Assembly: GCA_902796355.1 (NCBI GenBank)
Contig: CADBOU010000109.1
Span: 1-34,819 of the forward strand
DNA from: an uncultured Lachnospiraceae bacterium
Lineage (GTDB): Bacteria > Bacillota > Clostridia > Lachnospirales > Lachnospiraceae
Direction of reading: 5' to 3'
DNA: 34,819 nucleotides
Every line of letters begins with the position of its first letter. Positions within the stretch are counted from its first letter, which is position 1. The notes beneath the pieces were generated by a model, which was not told where the DNA came from, did not search any database, and was given only the letters and a program-made list of their open reading frames with translations. Positions 22,271 to 34,819 of the stretch are shown here, piece after piece. The position numbers were made by a program, and so were the translations under genes.

Positions 22271-23408
22271 TCATTATGAACTTGTGACGACGGACGGTCT
22301 GGCTAAGCGGGCTCATTTTACGACTGTTCACGGGACAATTGAAACACCGGTTTTTATGAATGTTGGAACGGCAGGGGCCATCAAAGGCGCCCTGTCGTCT
22401 TACGATCTGGAGCAGATCGGGACGCAGGTGGAGCTTTCAAATACGTACCATCTCCACGTGCGCCCGGGGGATGAGGTTGTGCGGGATATGGGAGGTATCC
22501 GCAAGTTTATGGCCTGGGACGGTCCGGTGCTGACAGATTCAGGCGGCTTTCAGGTCTTTTCTCTGGCACAGCTGCGTTCTATCAAAGAGGAAGGTGTGCA
22601 TTTTTGCTCACATATTGATGGACACCGGATCTTTATGGGACCGGAGGAGAGCATTCAGATTCAATCTAATCTGGCTTCGACCATCGCAATGGCTTTTGAC
22701 GAGTGCCCCTCTTCTGTGGCGGAGAAATCATATATTGATCAGTCGGTTGAGCGCACAACGCGTTGGCTTGAGCGATGCCGCAAAAAGATGGATGAGCTCA
22801 ACAGTCGGGAAGGGACTCTGAATCCGCATCAAATGCTTTTTGGTATCAATCAGGGAGGGATCTATCCCGACATTCGCAAAAAGCACGCAAAACAGATCGC
22901 CCAGATAGATTTGGACGGCTATGCGATTGGCGGCCTTGCTGTGGGAGAAACACATGAACAGATGTACGAGATACTCGAAGAAACTGTACCGCTTTTGCCG
23001 CAGGATAAGCCGGTCTATCTGATGGGCGTCGGGACGCCGCAAAACATACTCGAGGGCGTTGAACGCGGAGTGGATTTCTTTGATTGTGTTTATCCCAGCA
23101 GAAATGGACGGCATGGCCATGTGTACACAAATCACGGAAAGATGAATCTGCTCAATGCACGGTTTGAGAGGGATGACAGGCCGCTTGACGAGACCTGTGA
23201 CTGCCCAGTATGCCGCCGTTTTTCGCGCAGCTATATTCATCATTTGTTTAAGGCGAAGGAAATGCTTGCCATGCGCCTTTGTGTCATGCATAATCTGTAT
23301 TTCTACAATCACATGATGACAGAGATTCGCACAGCCATTGAAGCCGGGCGGTATGCAGAGTATAAAAAAGCTAAACTGGAAAATATGGAAGCAGGAGAAG
23401 ATCAATGA
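22263..23408 (+). CDS. tgt: tRNA-guanine transglycosylase
   Basis: Exchanges guanine 34 for preQ1 (or queuine) in tRNAs with GUN anticodons. Catalytic Asp92 is in LTDSGGFQVFS and the nucleophile Asp274 in FFDCVYPSRNGRHG (commonly FDCVLPTR). The Zn2+ site is Cys312, Cys314, Cys317 in CDCPVC plus a His in YIHHL. Length 381 is standard. ATG lies 8 nt inside the end of the transpeptidase gene and the stop overlaps proC in ATGA, so all three are co-translated. No queA or preQ1 synthesis genes are in the window; whether this strain makes or imports the base cannot be seen. Confidence 0.96.
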   Translation: MNNHYELVTTDGLAKRAHFTTVHGTIETPVFMNVGTAGAIKGALSSYDLEQIGTQVELSNTYHLHVRPGDEVVRDMGGIRKFMAWDGPVLTDSGGFQVFSLAQLRSIKEEGVHFCSHIDGHRIFMGPEESIQIQSNLASTIAMAFDECPSSVAEKSYIDQSVERTTRWLERCRKKMDELNSREGTLNPHQMLFGINQGGIYPDIRKKHAKQIAQIDLDGYAIGGLAVGETHEQMYEILEETVPLLPQDKPVYLMGVGTPQNILEGVERGVDFFDCVYPSRNGRHGHVYTNHGKMNLLNARFERDDRPLDETCDCPVCRRFSRSYIHHLFKAKEMLAMRLCVMHNLYFYNHMMTEIRTAIEAGRYAEYKKAKLENMEAGEDQ

Positions 23409-24211
23409 AAGATGTAATCGGGTTTATCGGTGCAGGAAATATGGGGACAGCTTTACTGACTGGTGCACGCGGTGCATACGGACCTGAGCAGTTCACTTTT
23501 TATGATCATCATGAAGATAAGAGAGCATTCATTGAGGAAACTCTTGGTGTTAAAGCGGCTGCAAATGCAGCTGATGTGGCAAAGAAAGCCAAGTTTTTAT
23601 TCCTGACGGTAAAACCGCAAAACTACGAAGAGTTGCTTGGGCAGATTAGAGATGAGCTGACCCGGGAACATATTATGATCAGCGTTGCACCCGGCGTGAC
23701 AGGACAGTGGATTTGCCGTACGGCTGGAACAGACTGCCGTGTTGTACGAGTCATGCCCAACACGCCGGCTCTGATCGGCTCTGGCATGACAGGCTTTTCC
23801 TATGAAGAGGGAGCACTGACTGATGAGGAGAGTGAAGTAATCATGAATATTCTCTCATCATGCGGCATTGCCCGGCGTGTCGATGAATCTTTGATGGATA
23901 CTGTCATCTGTGCGAGCGGATCATCGCCGGCCTTTTACTATCTTTTTATCGATGCTATCGCCAAACGCTGTGAAGCATGGGGCATGAGCAGGGAAGATGC
24001 CGTGCTCTTTGCGGCGCAGACAGCCATTGGTTCTGCCCGGATGATTCTTGAAACAGGTGAAGATCCCGCCATTCTCGCAGAACGTGTCTGCTCCAAGGGA
24101 GGGACGACTATTGAAGGAGTTCAGTCCCTGCAGCGTGATAACCTTGATTCTGTTGTAGCCCGTGCCATTGACGCGACATACACCAAGGCCAAGGCCATGC
24201 GAAAAGACTAA
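23405..24211 (+). CDS. proC: Pyrroline-5-carboxylate reductase
   Basis: Last step of proline synthesis, reducing P5C with NAD(P)H. Rossmann start IGFIGAGNMGTALL (5-18), LFLTVKPQNYEE, and the family's VRVMPNTPALIGSGMT; the C-terminal dimer domain carries GSSPAFYYLFIDA and CSKGGTTIEGVQ. Length 268 is typical. It overlaps tgt by 4 nt (ATGA). The other proline genes, proB and proA, are on the opposite strand immediately downstream, with only 2 nt between the proC and proA stop codons and no hairpin between them. Confidence 0.96.
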   Translation: MKDVIGFIGAGNMGTALLTGARGAYGPEQFTFYDHHEDKRAFIEETLGVKAAANAADVAKKAKFLFLTVKPQNYEELLGQIRDELTREHIMISVAPGVTGQWICRTAGTDCRVVRVMPNTPALIGSGMTGFSYEEGALTDEESEVIMNILSSCGIARRVDESLMDTVICASGSSPAFYYLFIDAIAKRCEAWGMSREDAVLFAAQTAIGSARMILETGEDPAILAERVCSKGGTTIEGVQSLQRDNLDSVVARAIDATYTKAKAMRKD

Positions 24212-24213
24212 TC

Positions 24214-25458
24214 TTATTTTCTGACCTGTCCGTTTCCCCGCAGCTGATATTTGTAGGATGTCAGCTCCTTAAGCCCCATCGGTCCGCGCGCATGAAGTTT
24301 TTGCGTGCTGATGCCGATCTCAGCTCCGAATCCAAACATGAAGCCGTCCGTAAACCGAGTTGATGCATTGGCGTAAACGCAGGCGGAATCGATCTCATTG
24401 AGAAATCTGTCGGCATTCTCATTTGTCGAAGTGATAATAGCATCCGAATGGCCGGTGTGATACCGGTTGGTATGCTTAATCGCCTCATCGACAGAATCAA
24501 CAATTTTGACAGAGAGGATATAATCGAGATATTCGGTTCCCCAGTCTTCCTCTGTGGCACGCTTCATGACGGGCGCGATACCGCAGGCAATCTCATCACC
24601 GCGCAGTTCCACCTGCTCGCCCAGCCGTTCTGCCAGAGCAGGAAGAAAGGCGTCGGCAATATTTCTGTGAACAAGCAGGCTTTCAGCTGCGTTACAGACG
24701 CCTACACGCTGCGTTTTAGCATTCGTGATGATGTCAAGAGCCATTTGAATATCGGCTGACTCATCAACAAATATATGGCAGTTTCCGGTTCCTGTCTCAA
24801 TAACAGGGATCGTGCTGGTTTCGACAACACTTTTAATCAGTCCGGCGCCTCCGCGCGGAATCAATACATCGATATACGCATTGGCGCGCATCATTTCTTT
24901 GACAGTCTCTCTGCTTGTATCTTCGAGCAGAATCAGGACGTCAGGATTGATATCCATCTGCTGAAGCGTCTGACGCATCACTTGCACCATGGCGATATTG
25001 GAGTGAATGCAATCGCTCCCACCGCGTAAGAAACTGACATTTCCTGACTTAAAACAGAGAGAAAAGGCGTCAGGAGTAACGTTGGGGCGGCTTTCATAAA
25101 TAATACCGATCACGCCCATCGGTACGCGGACTCTGCGGATATCAATACCGCTGTCCAATGTCCATGAATCCATGACCTCACCGATGGGATCAGGCAAGGC
25201 AGCGACCTGGCGCATCCCTTCGGCAATATCTTCCAGGCGCGCCTGAGTCAGACGCAGGCGGTCCTGCAGGCCTGGAGCCATGCCGGCCTTGACGGCATCT
25301 TCAAGATCTATGGCATTGGCGGCAAGGATCTCATCGCTGTGTGCCAACAATGCATCTGCTATACAGCATAATGCCTGATTCTTTTTGTCCGTTGGCATGG
25401 AGCGCATGATCACTTCTGCCTGCTTTGCCTTTTCTCCGAGAGTCATAATCGTGTTCAT
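24214..25458 (-). CDS. proA: Glutamate-5-semialdehyde dehydrogenase
   Basis: Reduces glutamyl-5-phosphate with NADPH to the semialdehyde, which closes to P5C. Aldehyde-dehydrogenase fold; [16 protein letters not shown] (118-133) is the family block, [13 protein letters not shown] follows, and the catalytic Cys is in [14 protein letters not shown]. The C-terminal [21 protein letters not shown] is the gamma-glutamyl phosphate reductase signature. Length 414 is normal. The ATG has AAAAGGAGGC upstream and lies 13 nt after the proB stop, so proB-proA is an operon transcribed with mrp. Confidence 0.96.
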
Positions 25459-25471
25459 ATGCTGCCTCCTT

Positions 25472-26272
25472 TTACACTGGAAGAAAGAGGGTTCCGATCG
25501 GCCTTCCGTTCATGATACGGTGGATGTTGTTTAAATCTTCTCCGTTTGCGATGATCATCGGGATGCCGGCTTCGGTCGCGGTCTTTGCGGCAGAAATCTT
25601 AGTCGCCATTCCGCCTGTACCGACATCTCCGGCGGTGTCTTTTGCCATCGAGAACATGCGCGCATCAAGGTGCTCGACTGTCTCAATCAGTTTTGCATCA
25701 GGATTCAAATTGGGATCATCTGTGTAGAATCCGTCAATATCCGAGAGAAGAATCAGCAAATCGGCTTTGACTAACGTGGCCACGATAGAAGAGAGGGTAT
25801 CATTGTCGCCGTACAGAATTTCATAGGGCGAGACCGTATCATTTTCATTGACAATCGGAATGGATCCCAGCTCTAATAAAGTGGTCAGTGTACCAATAAC
25901 ATTCTTTTTTGTTTCAGTGCTTTCCAACCCTTTCATCGTCAAAAGCACCTGTGCGGCTGTCTGGCCGTATTCGGCAAAGAGCTTCTGATAAATCATCATA
26001 AGCCGTCCCTGTCCGATCGCAGCATAACCCTGTTTGGTGAGCAGATCGTCGGTAGGTGTATGACGGCCGATTGAGTGACGGCCGACAGCAATGGCACCAG
26101 AAGAGACAAGGATGACCTCACGGCCTTCTCCTTTTTGGGTGCATATTTCGCGCACAAGTTTTTCAAGGCGCAGTAAATTGGGGGATCCGTTTTCAGCGCG
26201 TGTAATTGTTGAGGATCCGACCTTGACGACGAGGCGTTTTATGGTTTTGATGTTTTCTCTTGTAAATGCCAT
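25472..26272 (-). CDS. proB: Glutamate 5-kinase without PUA domain
   Basis: Phosphorylates glutamate as the first and usually feedback-inhibited step of proline synthesis. Amino-acid-kinase fold: [11 protein letters not shown] (13-23), [44 protein letters not shown] and [15 protein letters not shown] are all present. At 266 residues it lacks the C-terminal PUA domain of the E. coli enzyme (367 residues), a form common in clostridia. The ATG starts 2 nt after mrp's stop (TGATTATG), indicating coupling. Confidence 0.96.
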
Positions 26273-26274
26273 AA

Positions 26275-27165
26275 TCAGTTGTTAAAGTGTTTGTCAAGAT
26301 ATGTAATCATATCCGTGACGCGCTGCAGAGTGTTCTTTTCTGTAACCTTTTGAGGATCGATGTTCTTAAAGTTTTCCAGTGCCCAGTTCTCGATTGTTCC
26401 GGTATCACAGGCATGTGCCAGATCCGGCAGGAACGGAATGCGTGCCATTGTGGGGATGCTGTGCAGTTTAACTAATTCTTCCACATGGCTGGCACCGTAG
26501 ATTTCATGACGCTCATGGCAGTTCGGGCATTCAAAGAAGCTCATATTCTCAATGATGCCGAGAATAGGAACAGTCAGCATATCAGCCATTTTTACAGCCT
26601 TAGTGACGATCATAGAAACCAGCTCCTGCGGTGATGTGACGACAATGAGTCCCTCTACAGGAAGCTGCTGGAAGACAGTAAGAGGAACATCGCCTGTTCC
26701 GGGAGGCATGTCGATGACCATATAATCGACATCATTCCATATCACTTCACTGTAATAATTAGTTACCATTCCAGCAATCATGGGCCCGCGCCATACGACA
26801 GGTTCAGTCTCATCTGGAAGCAGAAGGTTGGTGGAGATGACCTGAATGCCCCCCTGGGTCAGAGCCGGCTCAATATTGCCTTCTGCATCGCCTTTCATTT
26901 TTTCGTGAAGGCCGAAAGCAGTAGGAATGGAAGGACCGGTCATATCGGCATCCAGTATAGCTACCTGACTCCCGTTTCGGCGCAGGAGCGTTGCAATCAG
27001 AGATGTTGTCATGGATTTTCCGACACCGCCCTTACCGCTGATGACACCGATGACATGGCGCACAGAGGCACGCGGATTGAGCTGTGCTTTCTGGATGCCG
27101 CCATTTTCACGGCTGTCGCAGTCAAGACTGCAGGTTTCGCAGTTATGTGTACATTCTTCTGGCAT
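26275..27165 (-). CDS. Mrp/NBP35-family Fe-S carrier ATPase
   Basis: Cytoplasmic P-loop ATPase that binds and transfers iron-sulfur clusters. The deviant Walker A GKGGVGKS is at 44-51, DADMTGPS at 72-79, and IDMPPGTGD at 151-159. The CxxC bridging motif is CPNC (213-216) in FFECPNCHERH. The N-terminus carries four Cys (5, 9, 12, 16; CTHNCETCSLDC), as in NBP35-type proteins, likely a second cluster site, and lacks the DUF59 domain of Mrp proper. Length 296. RBS AAAGGGTG lies about 6 nt before ATG. First gene of a unit with proB and proA; a functional link to proline synthesis is not apparent. Confidence 0.93.
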   Translation of the reverse strand: MPEECTHNCETCSLDCDSRENGGIQKAQLNPRASVRHVIGVISGKGGVGKSMTTSLIATLLRRNGSQVAILDADMTGPSIPTAFGLHEKMKGDAEGNIEPALTQGGIQVISTNLLLPDETEPVVWRGPMIAGMVTNYYSEVIWNDVDYMVIDMPPGTGDVPLTVFQQLPVEGLIVVTSPQELVSMIVTKAVKMADMLTVPILGIIENMSFFECPNCHERHEIYGASHVEELVKLHSIPTMARIPFLPDLAHACDTGTIENWALENFKNIDPQKVTEKNTLQRVTDMITYLDKHFNN

Positions 27166-28451: not shown

Positions 28452-31400
28452 ATGAAAAAGACAGATGTATTAAGCAGATTGATCGCTCAGGCTTATGAGG
28501 GAAGAAAGGGCCAGTACCGTCAGACGGCCGAACAGCTTCTCAATCATGCCGACAAAAACGGAAGGATACATGCGCAGGATATCCTGAAAGTGTGGGAGGA
28601 GTACATCGCCTCCGATCAGGCAGAAGAGCCGCAGGATGGCTGGCTGATATATGTTTATCTATACCTGCGCAATCAGCTTTTTCCGCATTTGCCGTTGACA
28701 ACCCGGGAAGCAGGTACACAGACGGAGCAGGGTGGATCCGGATTACAGGATATGACGGAGAATCGGGACAGCCTGATTCGTTTGCTGCATGCGGTCTATC
28801 AATACGAAAGAGCCGTGTGCCGCTTTGATCCGACAAAGGATATCCGGCTTTTATCGGACAAGGAGGTCAAGGAGAACGGTTTTACCGGTGAATACTTCAG
28901 AATGAAGAAACTGATTAGCATGCTCAATATATATGAGTTTATGCGAATCGGAGCTGATATAACTCCATTTAACACGCTGGGACATATCAGCGGCGTACAT
29001 TACATTGCCATGTATGTAGCCAGGCAGCTTTTTGCCGCTGGCGTGCCGGTTGATCTGGGAATGGTGTCTGCAGCAGCAGCAAGCCATGACATCGGTAAAT
29101 ACGGGTGCCGCAAACAGGAAGAAAGCCGGGTTCCGTACCTCCATTATTATTATACTGACTATTGCCTGAGCCGATACCGCCTTCCCGAGATTGCACATAT
29201 AGCAGCCAATCATTCAACGTGGGATCTGGAGCTTGAGAATCTGCCTGTGGAGTCCCTCCTTCTGATTTATGCTGATTTCAGGACGAAGAGCACACGCGAA
29301 CAAGGCAGGGAAATCATTCATTTTTACAGTTTGAAGGATGCTTTTGATGTCATACTCAACAAACTGGATAATGTTGATGAGGCCAAAGCGCACCGCTATA
29401 CAAAGGTCTACAATAAACTGAAAGACTTTGAGGATTATATGGTGGAGCGCGGCGTGCAGACAGAGGTCTCTGACTGTGCACTGAGATATCCGGTGGATCC
29501 GCCCGAGGTTAAGAAACCCGCCTTAAAGGAGACAGCGTTTCTGTTTGGCCAGCAGATAGTTGATCAGATGAAGAACAGGGCCATTGATCATAATGTCCGC
29601 CTGATGAGACGATTTGGCAATGCTGAGGAGTTCGGGAGCCTCTTAGAAGCAGCCAGAAGCGAAACGCGCTGGAAGAATGCGCGCACTTATCTGAATATTC
29701 TCAACGAGTATTCCACGTACATGACAGATGAACAGAAGACGATGACACTCGATTTTCTCTATGAGATGCTCCCGCATCATGAGAGTGATATCAGAGAGCA
29801 AACAGCCACAGTCATGGGCAAGATCGTCGGACGATACCGCATGGAATACAAAAAGGAGCTTCCGGCGGATATTCCGGCGCCAGATGAGAATCAGACGAAT
29901 CTCAGCATGTTCTCCAAATATATTGAGCTGCTGCTTATTCCCAATTATAAATATACAGATCAGCACAAAAAATGGATTACAGCGAGTGCTGACTTCTTTG
30001 TCAGATCTGTTGCGGAAAACTGCAGGCCCTCCTGCAGGCATAAGTATTATGAGATCCTGGAACAGTATTATCACAGGGACGAGACGGATGAGCTGTGGGT
30101 GATTGAGCTTTTGTCGACAGCGCTCAATGCGCGCCCGTCTTACTGCCCTGAAAGCTTTATCGAAACAGTGACAGGATATGCCCGCAAAATGCTTGGACAT
30201 CAGGGAATGCGTGTGGATTTAATCGCCATCGATGTGCTGAGACACTTTGGGAAGATGACAGAAGATGAGGCGGTCAGGCGCCGGCGGAAAATCATGCGTC
30301 TGCATGATCATGGTCTGACAGATGAACAGCTGGCCGCGATGTTCCTGGATGATTTAAAGACACAGACGCATTGGGTTGTCAAACTGACCAATATTGAAGA
30401 AATGATGCACTGCGTGCTGGAGGAGACAGGACGCAGCCGTCTTCTGCATGTGGCCACTCATTTTGCCAATCTGATCAAAGTCAGTGAGACCGTGACTGTA
30501 CGCAAGACGGCAGGAGATGCGCTCCTTCAGATCATTCAAAAGATGACAATGGATCAGCGCAATGAGCTGATGGTTGAGCTGCAGAGCGGACTGGAGATTG
30601 AGGACTATCAGTTCTCACGATTCATTCCGGATTACCTGGGTGTAGTCCTGCTGTATCTTTCACCGAGAGAGATTGATGAAACGATCGACTCCCTTCAAAA
30701 ATACATCGATGCCGGGAACGAGAGGACCGCGTCAGCGGCATTGGGAACAATTGCCATTGCTCTGGAGAACTATGGTTTGTATCAGGGGAATGAAAGTGAT
30801 ACAAAGAGGGAGGAGAGAAAACGGCGCCTGCTCGGCATGCTGATGAAAGGGTTTGCTTATTATAAGCACTCAATCTCCAGAGAAGCTTTCCGTACGATCG
30901 GTGAGCATCTGTTCGCATCACCGATCCTGTCGATGAAAGAGAAGCACGATATTGCCGGATGCATATTTAAGCGAATCCTGTCAATTCTTCCCGAAAAAGA
31001 GGAAGACCGGGAGCTTGATTTCTACAATAATGCCGCTGTTTTGAACCACATTTACCGGTTTATCTCCGAATATCAAAGCGAAGTCGGGTCATTTTGTATT
31101 CCGCATCAGGGACGCGTGGCCTTTTTCCCGGGGACCTTTGATCCGTTCAGTCTGGGGCACAAAGCCATTGCCACAACGATCCGGGATATGGGATTTGAAG
31201 TGTACCTGGCCATCGATGAGTTTTCCTGGTCTAAAAAAACACTTCCGCATATGCTGCGTAAAGAGATCCTTAGCATGACCATTGCTGATGAGGATGATTT
31301 ATATGTCTTTCCGGATGACATTTCTGTTAATATCGCCAATCCGGAAGATTTACGGCAGCTGAAGCTGCTCTTTGAAGGGCGCGAATTGTATATCGCTGTC

Positions 31401-33227
31401 GGCTCTGATGTCGTGTTGAATGCATCCAGTTACAAGAAAAAACCGGAGCCGTATTCGATTCATTCCTTTAATCATCTGATCTTTGCCAGAGAGGCAGAAC
31501 AACTGGATGAGGACGGAGAGCAGTATCCGATCACAGGGAAAGTGATCGAACTGACACTGCAAAAATACTATGAGGATATCAGCTCTACCAGGATCAGAGA
31601 GAATATTGACCTGGGACGGGATATATCAAACCTGCTCGATCCGGTTGTTCAGAATTATATTTATGACCGCAACTTCTATGCCCGTGAGCCGGCTTACAAA
31701 CACGTGCTTCAGGCGCAGGAGATGAACATTCTGTGTTACGGACACGATGAAATACCGGACGTGGAACGTATGAGGTCAGAGCTGCGTGAGAGCAGATATG
31801 ACTTCGATGAGCTGTATGATTATTTTTCTCTGCCCAGAGTGCGTAAGATCGTGATTGAGACAGGAGAAGAAGAGAGAAAGATCTCCGCTTTTGCAGCTGC
31901 TTCACGCATCCGCACGCATGATCTGCTGGAAGAGTTCAAAGATGCCGGAATTGCTGCCCATATCAGACAGGAGTCCGGCGGGGGGATTGCTGTGATCGGA
32001 GCATTTTATGCGGCCAAAACAGAGATTTCCAATCTCAGGGAGATTCTGCTCACCGAGTTGTTGACGATGCTGCTCGCCGGGGATTATGCATACGCAGTCT
32101 ATCATCCCATCTGCGATGCGGGGATGGATCCGCGTACAATCAGAGCTTTTAAGAAACAGGGATTTGTCAATATATCAGAGGATCCGAACCGCCCGGTCTA
32201 CGCAGTGGATATGCGTGATCCGATTGTCATCTTCAGGGATGTAGAGACGATGGTCAAAGCGCCGCTCAACAAGAATCCGCGTGTGCAGAAAGCGATTGAT
32301 GACGCACATGACAGGCTTCTTAAGACATTCAGAGATATTTATCCTGAAAAGCTCCTGATCTCATTTAACACGAGTGCCGTGCACAACAAGATCGCATCAC
32401 TTGTCGCGCGCGATAATGGTGTCTCCACCGTGCCTGATCCCAGGCGCCGCAGGGGACCCTATCTGTCGGTTCCGTTCGGGAAAGCGTTGTCAGATGTTGT
32501 TGTTCCTAATACGGTCACCAAGGCGCTGCGGACTGAGAAGTATTTTCATAACGATCTTTCAGGATTTACAATCAGAGAGTCACAGGATTATCAGACACTG
32601 CAGGATCAGGCAAAAACACTCAAATCCTTTAACCGCCCGGTCATCCTGATCGATGATTTGCTGCATTCAGGGCAGAGGATTAACAAAATTGATCCCATCC
32701 TCAGAGAACAGGATGTACAGGTGCACAAAGTGATTGTCGGCCTTCTGACCGGTAATGCACAGGACAATATGAAAGCGCGCGGACGCAAGGTGGAGGGAGC
32801 GTATTTTATTCCGTCTATCAACATATGGCTTAATGAGCGGGATTGTTATCCTTTTATAGGCGGCGATTCCATTGACGGGCCAGAGGGAGACGATGATGTT
32901 TCTATCAATCTGACAATGCCTTACACCAGCTTTTCATTTGTCGGAGATAATGATATGGACGCCATCTACCGTTATTCACTGACATGTCTGGAAAATGCAT
33001 TGTCAATATTAAAGGCCCTGGAGCAGGAGTATCAGAAAATGTTTGAAAAGAAACTGACACTTCACAGATTGGGGGCTGTTCTGCTGCACCCGCGCAGGCC
33101 GCTTCTGGGCGGAGGCCTCGGATATGACGAACAGATGGCGCCATCTGTTTATGTGGCCAATGATATCCGTTGGCTTAAACGTCTGTATTTAAAGCGCGGC
33201 AAAGGCGGCATGCCGCAGGATCAGTAA
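28452..33227 (+). CDS. Giant multidomain protein: HD hydrolase, helical repeats, NadD-like, GNAT-like, PRTase-like
   Basis: A 1591-residue cytoplasmic protein with no signal or membrane helix. In order: an HD phosphohydrolase domain (about 150-330) with His178/183, His212-Asp213 in SHDIGKYG, His254 and Asp276; a long all-helical region (about 360-870) that looks like irregular HEAT-type repeats; a nucleotidyltransferase domain (887-1075) with GTFDPFSLGH (894-903) and ISSTRIREN (1043-1051), the two signatures of NadD-type adenylyltransferases; a weakly supported GNAT-like part (about 1130-1245, ending in IRAFKKQGFVN); and a phosphoribosyltransferase-like part (about 1290-1530) with the PRPP-loop pattern VILIDDLLHSGQRI (1397-1410). 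The ATG has GGAGATGG upstream. HD and NadD-like domains echo the separate nadD-yqeK genes of Firmicutes. Function unknown; nucleotide or NAD-related chemistry is inferred. Confidence 0.85.
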   Translation: MKKTDVLSRLIAQAYEGRKGQYRQTAEQLLNHADKNGRIHAQDILKVWEEYIASDQAEEPQDGWLIYVYLYLRNQLFPHLPLTTREAGTQTEQGGSGLQDMTENRDSLIRLLHAVYQYERAVCRFDPTKDIRLLSDKEVKENGFTGEYFRMKKLISMLNIYEFMRIGADITPFNTLGHISGVHYIAMYVARQLFAAGVPVDLGMVSAAAASHDIGKYGCRKQEESRVPYLHYYYTDYCLSRYRLPEIAHIAANHSTWDLELENLPVESLLLIYADFRTKSTREQGREIIHFYSLKDAFDVILNKLDNVDEAKAHRYTKVYNKLKDFEDYMVERGVQTEVSDCALRYPVDPPEVKKPALKETAFLFGQQIVDQMKNRAIDHNVRLMRRFGNAEEFGSLLEAARSETRWKNARTYLNILNEYSTYMTDEQKTMTLDFLYEMLPHHESDIREQTATVMGKIVGRYRMEYKKELPADIPAPDENQTNLSMFSKYIELLLIPNYKYTDQHKKWITASADFFVRSVAENCRPSCRHKYYEILEQYYHRDETDELWVIELLSTALNARPSYCPESFIETVTGYARKMLGHQGMRVDLIAIDVLRHFGKMTEDEAVRRRRKIMRLHDHGLTDEQLAAMFLDDLKTQTHWVVKLTNIEEMMHCVLEETGRSRLLHVATHFANLIKVSETVTVRKTAGDALLQIIQKMTMDQRNELMVELQSGLEIEDYQFSRFIPDYLGVVLLYLSPREIDETIDSLQKYIDAGNERTASAALGTIAIALENYGLYQGNESDTKREERKRRLLGMLMKGFAYYKHSISREAFRTIGEHLFASPILSMKEKHDIAGCIFKRILSILPEKEEDRELDFYNNAAVLNHIYRFISEYQSEVGSFCIPHQGRVAFFPGTFDPFSLGHKAIATTIRDMGFEVYLAIDEFSWSKKTLPHMLRKEILSMTIADEDDLYVFPDDISVNIANPEDLRQLKLLFEGRELYIAVGSDVVLNASSYKKKPEPYSIHSFNHLIFAREAEQLDEDGEQYPITGKVIELTLQKYYEDISSTRIRENIDLGRDISNLLDPVVQNYIYDRNFYAREPAYKHVLQAQEMNILCYGHDEIPDVERMRSELRESRYDFDELYDYFSLPRVRKIVIETGEEERKISAFAAASRIRTHDLLEEFKDAGIAAHIRQESGGGIAVIGAFYAAKTEISNLREILLTELLTMLLAGDYAYAVYHPICDAGMDPRTIRAFKKQGFVNISEDPNRPVYAVDMRDPIVIFRDVETMVKAPLNKNPRVQKAIDDAHDRLLKTFRDIYPEKLLISFNTSAVHNKIASLVARDNGVSTVPDPRRRRGPYLSVPFGKALSDVVVPNTVTKALRTEKYFHNDLSGFTIRESQDYQTLQDQAKTLKSFNRPVILIDDLLHSGQRINKIDPILREQDVQVHKVIVGLLTGNAQDNMKARGRKVEGAYFIPSINIWLNERDCYPFIGGDSIDGPEGDDDVSINLTMPYTSFSFVGDNDMDAIYRYSLTCLENALSILKALEQEYQKMFEKKLTLHRLGAVLLHPRRPLLGGGLGYDEQMAPSVYVANDIRWLKRLYLKRGKGGMPQDQ

Positions 33228-33241
33228 GGGATACAATTGAT

Positions 33242-34222
33242 ATGAGATATATACATGAACTGGTCAATGAGATAGGGGCCCGGGCAATGGTGCTGGACGG
33301 GTGCCCGGTACATCTGAAGCGGAAGAACAGCGTTAACATTCTGGCTCTCGGCGATGTCGGGACAACCATGCTGATCGGATTGAGGCTGCTGGGAGCGGAT
33401 GTGATATCCTGCATCGGCATCTGCGATATCAAACCGGGTAATACAGAGCGCCTTGAGATGGAGATCAATCAAATCGGGTATCCGTTTGAAAACGATCTGC
33501 CGCCGGTTAAGATTGTACAAGAAGAGAATCTGTTTGACTGTGATGTCATGATTTTCTGCGCCAGCAAAGGAGTTCCTCCGGTTGGCGAAAAAACAGAGGG
33601 GATGGATGTGCGGATGGCTCAGCTTGAGGCTAACAGAGATCTTATCCGGCACTATGCAACCCTGGCTGGTAAAGGTGCTTATACCGGCCTGGTCTGTATT
33701 GTGAGTGATCCGGTTGATCCTCTGGCGGCGGCATTTCTCGATGCATCCGGATTAATGCCCTGGCAGATACAGGGATATGGCCTGGGAGTGATGAACACGC
33801 GGGCCCGCTACTATGCTGAAAAGGCAGATGATGCAGCGCTTCAAAAGTATAAGCAGGAAGGGCGGGCGTTCGGACCCCATGGTCAGGATCTGGTGATTGC
33901 CAACAGTATCGGCAATTATGATGAAACCGCTTCAAAAAAGCTGACAGACATGACTGTAAATGCCAATCTGAAGGTGCGGGAGCTTGGATACAAACCGTAT
34001 ATCGCACCGGCACTGTCGTCTGCTGCGTTGTCGATTCTGCTGACGCTCAGGGGACAGTGGCACTATGGTTCTGTTTATTTGGGTTCAAAAGATCGAGGAG
34101 CCTATCTGGGAGTGAGAAACCGCCTTAAGCCATCCGGTTGGGAATATGAAGATGCACCGCTTCCGGATGAGCTCTATCAGCGTATCAGAAAAGCCTTTCT
34201 AAATCTGTGTGAGATTCGGTGA
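33242..34222 (+). CDS. Lactate/malate dehydrogenase-fold protein, divergent
   Basis: A 326-residue protein that by motif order belongs to the LDH/MDH superfamily but is divergent. NAD-binding loop ILALGDVGTTM (33-43) and an acidic residue closing the second strand (Asp62 in ICDI) suggest NAD rather than NADP. VRMAQLEANRDLI (123-135) matches the R...N block, VSDPVDPL (154-161) the NPvD block (Asp replaces Asn), NTRARYY (185-191) the substrate Arg region, and GPHGQD (211-216) the catalytic His213. The Asp that pairs with this His in LDH (LD..R) appears to be Asn185. Starts 14 nt after the giant gene. Substrate unknown. Confidence 0.75.
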   Translation: MRYIHELVNEIGARAMVLDGCPVHLKRKNSVNILALGDVGTTMLIGLRLLGADVISCIGICDIKPGNTERLEMEINQIGYPFENDLPPVKIVQEENLFDCDVMIFCASKGVPPVGEKTEGMDVRMAQLEANRDLIRHYATLAGKGAYTGLVCIVSDPVDPLAAAFLDASGLMPWQIQGYGLGVMNTRARYYAEKADDAALQKYKQEGRAFGPHGQDLVIANSIGNYDETASKKLTDMTVNANLKVRELGYKPYIAPALSSAALSILLTLRGQWHYGSVYLGSKDRGAYLGVRNRLKPSGWEYEDAPLPDELYQRIRKAFLNLCEIR

Positions 34223-34228
34223 GAAAAA

Positions 34229-34819
34229 GTGACAAATCAAGTAGACAGCAAACAACAGAAACTGGTCATCGTCCGCCCGATTTGTGAGCTGCACGGCAGG
34301 ACGAAGCGCATGGAGGATGTGCTGAGCAGTATGGTCAGTGATCTTGTAGCACAGGATGTGGAGATCACGTGGGTAGAAATGGCTTCTGAGTTAAGGCGGA
34401 TCAGCCTTCAGGGAGAGAGAGTTCTCTTTGCCATATGCCTTTCTGAAGCAGGCGTTAACATGGAATACTACCGGCTGCTCGAATACTTCAGAGAACATCC
34501 GGATTGCCTTTCAGGCGCCGTCGGGGGAATCATTGTGGACGGCAGCAGTGAACTTTTCACCAAAGCGCTGGCCAGAAGAATTGCTTTTTCTGCGAATATG
34601 GCAGGCTGTACATTCCCGGGCAAACCGCTTGTCGAAGCGACCGGTTCACTTAGCAATTTTAATGTGCTTGCAAATGTGAGAGGGGTCGCGCCCTATGAGG
34701 TATACCGGCAGCAGGTTAAAGAGCTTGCACACAAGGTGCTCCGTTTTTCAAGGGAGAAGAGTGGCCGGGGAGGTCATGTTCTGGCACTCCACGCCAGTTC
34801 CCGCAGCACATCCAATTCA
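34229..34819 (+). CDS. Flavodoxin/FMN-reductase-like protein, 3'-truncated
   Basis: Open to the right edge (197 codons visible). GTG start 6 nt after the previous stop, with GAGAAAAA upstream; the first residues are VTNQVDSKQQKLVIVRPICE. The first 185 residues form a separate alpha/beta domain with GGIIVDGSSELF and GKPLVEATGSLSNFNVLAN, not matched to a family. At its end GHVLALHASSRSTSNS matches the strand-loop that binds FMN phosphate in NADPH-dependent FMN reductases and flavodoxin-like oxidoreductases (GSxRxxSN). So a second, flavin-binding domain probably begins at about residue 183 and continues outside. Third gene of the multidomain operon. Confidence 0.65.
   Translation, partial: MTNQVDSKQQKLVIVRPICELHGRTKRMEDVLSSMVSDLVAQDVEITWVEMASELRRISLQGERVLFAICLSEAGVNMEYYRLLEYFREHPDCLSGAVGGIIVDGSSELFTKALARRIAFSANMAGCTFPGKPLVEATGSLSNFNVLANVRGVAPYEVYRQQVKELAHKVLRFSREKSGRGGHVLALHASSRSTSNS

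Follow-up and report, generated by a model that had tools for sequence, protein, structure and literature searches.

In the minimal mycoplasma cell JCVI-Syn3A, a fused YqeK HD domain proofreads the dinucleotide products of NadD (PMC9426524). Such mycoplasma NadD–YqeK fusions are chains of ~360-425 aa that begin with NadD and end with HD. Another report (PMC12879401) describes the HD-containing NadD of a different mycoplasma as a c-di-AMP phosphodiesterase. YqeK itself, an Ap4A hydrolase (COG1713, TIGR00488), has published dimetal ligands H21, H50, D51, H83, H109 and D127 (PMC8177086). The two mycoplasma cases are the nearest functional precedents for the protein described here, an HD and a NadD-fold domain together making and checking a dinucleotide. 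NadD–YqeK fusions, with NadD first and HD second, are not confined to the mycoplasmas from which they were described: clostridial genomes of the present organism's order have them too (L007:1420-2697, 425 aa; L009, 376 aa).

We analysed a 34,819-nt stretch of DNA, hereafter the window, from an uncultured Lachnospiraceae bacterium whose genome sequence comprises 1.53 Mb in 192 contigs and is 86% complete. The window carries, in one uninterrupted ATG-to-stop frame, a protein that combines an HD hydrolase with a NadD-fold adenylyltransferase, as the mycoplasma NadD–YqeK fusions (PMC9426524) do. However, HD lies ~550 residues before NadD, a HEAT solenoid stands between them, GNAT- and PRTase-like domains come after, and the acceptor pocket is different. 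Moreover, the host has separate nadD and yqeK genes, whereas the mycoplasma type has NadD before HD and is the sole NadD of the cell. The DVU_1551 family NTP transferase–HD protein (NF045665) is likewise a fusion of nucleotidyltransferase and HD, but it matches the present family weakly and over the HD stretch only, with 23 bits against a cut-off of 315 (E 3e-5, Mobilibacterium homologue). The fusion, its domains and the two genes behind it are arranged as follows.

28452-33227, plus strand: five-domain fusion protein, 1,591 aa (single open frame; full-length homologues).
28947-29453, plus strand: HD hydrolase domain, residues 166-334 (Pfam HD; conservation; ligands collinear with those of YqeK).
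29550-31082, plus strand: HEAT-repeat solenoid, residues about 367-877 (Pfam HEAT; AlphaFold pLDDT 88.9; fold matches).
31107-31682, plus strand: NadD-fold adenylyltransferase domain, residues 886-1077 (Pfam CTP_transf_like; fold; comparison with real NadDs).
31707-32216, plus strand: GNAT-fold domain, residues 1086-1255 (fold matches; alignment).
32235-33185, plus strand: PRTase-like domain extended by C-terminal helices, residues 1262-1578, core at 32466-32822 (PF00156; hhalign; alignment).
33242-34222, plus strand: c0, LDH/MDH-like NAD-type dehydrogenase, 326 aa (sub-threshold Pfam Ldh_1_N; LDH matches in PDB; co-occurrence).
34229-34819, plus strand: c1, NADPH-dependent FMN-reductase-like flavoprotein (Pfam FMN_red in homologues; conservation; co-occurrence).

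From the N to the C terminus, the fusion runs through a helical region (1-165), HD, the HEAT solenoid (to about 885 in the model-based layout), the NadD fold, the GNAT fold and the PRTase-like domain with C-terminal helices. An earlier, sequence-only reading had reported a single-frame fusion with the motifs SHDIGK (H212-D213), GTFDPFSLGH (894-903), ISSTRIREN and VILIDDLLHSGQRI; the frame is real and every motif is in it. A chance ORF or an annotation artefact is ruled out, because 49 near-full-length homologues share the complete architecture, with 31-83% identity over the C-terminal half and catalytic residues invariant or nearly so. Conservation over the whole length is seen in about 50 clostridial genomes of several orders, at identities of 30-80%. 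Pfam matches on the fusion are HD at 176-275 (E 2.4e-4), CTP_transf_like at 891-1051 (E 2e-10) and Pribosyltran at 1339-1457 (E 7e-5). Two AlphaFold models were made, of residues 1-885 (pLDDT 88.9) and 868-1591 (pLDDT 86.9), and then submitted to structure comparison.

Sequence profiles and models together back the domains assigned in that reading, among which the PRTase-like domain is the least secure. Its HD hydrolase and NadD-like adenylyltransferase both proved to have Pfam matches and sites that look intact, and its 'helical scaffold' is a HEAT solenoid; its list missed the GNAT fold at 1086-1255. The profile searches and predicted structures it had proposed as a check confirmed a nucleotidyltransferase fold and active sites that are not degraded, and no existing characterisation was found. 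Its remark that the architecture had no described function agrees with the open-access literature, in which we found no description of it, and no profile library names the full-length fusion. The fusion carries some but not all of the features that define NadD, YqeK and PRTase family members. To our knowledge, the domains are known singly, and their assembly and the three-gene system are new in anatomy.

CTP_transf_like is found in 37 of 37 homologues, and the modelled domain superposes on NadD with a Z of 16.5 (183 residues aligned, rmsd 2.8), its best folds being NadD/NMNAT. Both this fold and the ATP motifs (GxFDPxxxxH and ISSTxIR) are common to the fusion and to NadD/NMNAT enzymes (TIGR00482, PF01467), and the family versions of the motifs, FPGTFDPFSLxHK and DISSTxIR, are invariant or nearly so among the 49 homologues. 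The best NCBIfam match of the fusion is also NadD (TIGR00482, E 2.5e-12), but its 47.2 bits fall short of the curated cut-off of 112.45. The difference from real NadDs, including that of the same genome, lies on the acceptor side, where family-specific residues stand in all aligned members in place of the NaMN-site motifs. PPHK has become DEFSWSK, SYTxDT has become VNIANPxDL, and NASxY stands where NadD has its tryptophan after GxD. Moreover, W926 and K928 are invariant in the 49 homologues. The pocket is thus rewritten yet itself invariant, and from this we infer that the domain probably acts on one particular acceptor, different from NaMN.

Predicted metal ligands H178, H212, D213, H231 and H254 of the HD domain are invariant in the 49 homologues, and so is D275 in an N-terminal alignment of 44 members. 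H178, H212, D213 and D275 provide the H..HD..D ligands of the HD superfamily within an HD-type profile (Pfam HD, 21.8-23.1 bits; cut-off 22). H231 and H254 align with the two extra histidines that form the dimetal site of YqeK, so that the six-ligand pattern H..HD..H..H..D is common to both. However, similarity to YqeK at the family level is poor: hhalign places the six ligands in the same order but gives the family match a probability of 1.7%, an NCBIfam search at E 1 does not report TIGR00488, the spacing differs, and the fusion has extra invariant motifs, HYYYTD and NHSTWDLELENL. Searches of PDB sequences with the HD sub-profile gave weak or irrelevant matches only.

The same holds for the GNAT and PRTase sub-profiles in PDB sequence searches. 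The solenoid is recognised by Pfam HEAT in 24 of 44 homologues, and the model of residues 1-885 reaches Z up to 15.1 to CAND1, with similar values for karyopherins and PP2A-A. The GNAT fold is assigned from the predicted structure, with Z 13.8 over 151 residues to Naa60 (5icw) and 13.7 to RimI. It is the least conserved part of the fusion (mean column identity 37%), and the alignment of homologues has no conserved motif of the acetyl-CoA loop type, (Q/R)xxGx(G/A), between beta4 and alpha3.

The PRTase assignment, the least secure of the named domains, is suggested by PF00156, by the alignment of its DD motif with genuine PRTases in hhalign (probability 69%, 37 columns) and by the order of strands and helices. 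In the structure comparison, NadD and GNAT matches took up the whole list of folds, so that the lack of PRTases among the matches listed does not count as evidence. PF00156 scored 22.6 bits in hmmscan and 27.2 bits in the whole-genome search, around a cut-off of 26.3, and matched 4 of 37 homologues at E 0.01. The domain has the vxxvDD...G motif and the helix–strand context of type I phosphoribosyltransferases. However, the PRPP loop DDxxxTGxT of these enzymes is altered, with HKGYR in place of TTGxT; the equivalent stretch reads DDLLHKGYR in most homologues and DDLLHSGQR in the copy of the window. Residues DD, G and R of this loop are nearly invariant among homologues, therefore the site is under selection, though it is non-canonical. 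The loop without TGxT and the weak overall match to PRTases mean that the domain may not be a transferase. A divergent PRTase-like domain can be kept from the sequence-only reading, and its statement that such domains make the mononucleotide for NadD becomes uncertain here.

The strongest clue to function is the presence of two obligate oxidoreductase partners, which lie outside the coordinates considered in that reading. The gene for c0 follows the fusion after a gap of 14 nt. Its product shares with the L-lactate/malate dehydrogenase family the GDVG loop, an Asp in the Rossmann motif that is characteristic of NAD enzymes, and the equivalents of Arg171 and His195. It differs in having Met for Asp168 and Asp for Asn140, both invariant or nearly so; the Asp168–His195 pair that, with Arg171, defines LDH/MDH enzymes is thus broken, and the chemistry of c0 is possibly altered within the superfamily. 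In one branch (L030, L027, L019 and L021), c0 has an extra N-terminal stretch of ~90-110 aa.

The c1 gene is cut by the end of the window (34819), and its FMN_red part lies beyond. Four c1 homologues match FMN_red with 64-75 bits against a cut-off of 24 (E 1e-17 to 8e-21), the domain of NADPH-dependent FMN reductases. To this domain c1 adds four invariant Cys (C-x2-C-x4-C-x8-C in homologues) and an N-terminal domain of ~160 aa in which TK and FpG...VE motifs are conserved. This domain is present in the window and in homologues such as L014:15652-16701, and Pfam gives it no noteworthy match.

The fusion was found in 25 of 392 genomes sampled evenly across the order, and both c0 and c1 occur in exactly these 25 and in none of the others; related genomes are not independent in these counts, and presence and absence agree within mixed genera too. 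In a sample of the phylum the fusion was found in 8 of 398 genomes, and c0 was present in seven of seven positives. Both c0 and c1 are present in all fetched loci that extend far enough downstream, in one case (L019) ~5.4 kb past the end of the fusion. In two genomes (G278 and G330) the fusion and the c0–c1 pair lie on separate contigs, and in a third (G740) c0 is likewise on another contig. Because co-occurrence also extends to genomes in which the genes are unlinked, their association goes beyond position and is functional. The fusion, c0 and c1 form an obligate system of three genes.

Peptide patterns were scanned against 84,980 species genomes, and 18 loci were fetched, most of them spanning nearly the whole protein. 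Carriers among them are Mobilibacterium timonense (L025), Alkaliphilus transvaalensis (L030) and MAGs of Lachnospiraceae, Oscillospiraceae, Clostridiaceae and Tissierellia. In one family the fusion occurs in 21 of 58 genomes and follows genus boundaries, with eight of eight genomes of genus g163 and none in most other genera; it is therefore a stable accessory trait. In a tree of 49 members this family forms one branch. The family of the window's organism sits in two separate places, and its genus lies beside Mobilibacterium and Eubacterium-like sequences, which suggests some horizontal transfer.

The fusion is single copy in its source genome. Clustering of flanking genes from 19 loci revealed no other neighbour as widely conserved as c0 and c1; the remaining neighbours vary by lineage and, by inspection, look like ordinary chromosomal genes. 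Rfam searches of the window and four loci gave tRNA only and no riboswitch upstream, and a scan for promoters and terminators did no better than shuffles. Just upstream in the window (23405-27165) are proC on the plus strand, proA and proB on the minus strand and a gene for an Mrp-type Fe-S carrier, none of them conserved neighbours.

The survey for a separate nadD–yqeK pair proposed in the sequence-only reading found both genes in the same genome (G000), adjacent on contig C191: a standard nadD (C191:5358-5885, 217 aa) followed by yqeK (C191:6013-6528, 192 aa). Because these ordinary genes stand side by side elsewhere, the fusion is unlikely to be the housekeeping enzyme of NAD synthesis. The earlier idea of a single-chain machine for a dinucleotide, possibly NAD-like, thus survives as a scaffolded nucleotide or dinucleotide enzyme, and its 'NAD-like' part loses ground, since the NaMN motifs are replaced and nadD and yqeK are separate.

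We tentatively favour a scaffolded enzyme that adenylylates a nucleotide other than the nicotinate one, can hydrolyse its product and serves the two redox partners; its chemistry may be a variant of NadD–YqeK editing. We infer reactions, substrates and partner roles as follows. The NadD-fold domain would use ATP to attach AMP to an acceptor (a nucleotide or phosphorylated compound), probably not NaMN, and give an ADP-linked dinucleotide. The HD domain, with its YqeK-type dimetal ligand set, would cut the phosphoanhydride of this product or of wrong products, in proofreading or turnover. The PRTase-like domain might make or hold a 5′-phosphoribosyl acceptor, the GNAT fold might be a non-catalytic or divergent module binding a ligand or partner, and the solenoid could hold the active sites together or bind a partner. 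That c0 and c1 prepare the acceptor or use the product is a guess, and so is the order of the steps. The NadD fold, the ATP motifs, the HD ligands, the rewritten but invariant pocket, the mycoplasma precedent, the co-occurrence and the separate nadD and yqeK argue for this scheme; the PRPP loop without TGxT, the weak PRTase match, the poorly conserved GNAT fold and the dissimilarity of HD to the YqeK profile argue against it. In a bolder form, which we consider unlikely, the three proteins would make and use a new adenine-dinucleotide redox cofactor, or a modified NAD or FAD, in anaerobic Clostridia. The NadD-fold site would then join AMP to a non-nicotinamide nucleotide and the HD site would edit, while the LDH-like and flavin-type partners would reduce the cofactor or depend on it.

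The best profile and the best folds of the adenylyltransferase domain being those of NadD/NMNAT, the system might instead be a second, edited route of NAD(P) synthesis or salvage. The NadD-fold domain would adenylylate NMN or NaMN made by the PRTase-like domain, HD would destroy mistakes, and the partners would use NAD(H). The SLGHK motif, also present in the putative NadD 3h05, and the HD–NadD proofreading precedent (PMC9426524) are consistent with such a route. However, the profile score is less than half of its cut-off, the NaMN-site motifs are replaced, ordinary nadD and yqeK are at hand, and extra demand for NAD does not explain a patchy set of three genes; we therefore judge this route unlikely. 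No more probable in our view is a sensor of nucleotide state with little or no synthesis, in which the domains would serve as binding sites for ATP, for phosphoribosyl compounds and for acyl-CoA, and the HEAT solenoid would dock and control c0 and c1 according to the energy state of the cell. Such a role would suit a large solenoid, typical of protein binding, as well as the altered catalytic loops of the GNAT and PRTase-like domains and the strict co-inheritance with two enzymes, but HD ligands and NadD ATP-side motifs that stay invariant over ~50 divergent members are expected of catalysis, not of sensing alone.

The YqeK-type ligand set of HD, together with the report of a mycoplasma HD-containing NadD as a c-di-AMP phosphodiesterase (PMC12879401), would also fit an enzyme that makes and degrades a dinucleotide signal such as Ap4A or c-di-AMP, with HD as the phosphodiesterase. 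This is quite improbable, as the genome already has yqeK, a signal does not account for two obligate redox partners, and neither a riboswitch nor another Rfam signal is nearby. A defence system or a toxin system borne on a mobile element is very improbable. Its patchy distribution (25/392) and the two places of the organism's family in the gene tree could be read that way, but PADLOC gave no match of note, PHROGs and phage records gave none, and the gene is single copy and genus-consistent among ordinary-looking chromosomal neighbours. The one PADLOC hit on the fusion, to Cmr6 (E 0.008), was weak and taken as chance, and phage origin was likewise rejected.

Constant co-inheritance of the fusion with two redox enzymes points to an unrecognised nucleotide or cofactor pathway. 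A conserved five-domain enzyme of ~1,600 residues with two oxidoreductases, carried by gut and environmental anaerobes, is hard to explain by known metabolism. If the product were a new dinucleotide, the very short list of universal-type redox cofactors would gain a member; otherwise the system still shows that domains of NAD synthesis and proofreading have been reused on a HEAT scaffold. The system is directly testable, because isolates carry relatives (Mobilibacterium timonense, Alkaliphilus transvaalensis and Acetoanaerobium noterae) and the three genes are compact and mostly adjacent. A plasmid origin was also considered and rejected, the sole 'plasmid' match being a 2.6-Mb Acetoanaerobium record that resembles a chromosome. 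This record of A. noterae (L099, NZ_CP154629.1; 2.63 Mb), labelled plasmid pTPELB2 in PLSDB, is chromosome-like and has the fusion, c0 and c1.
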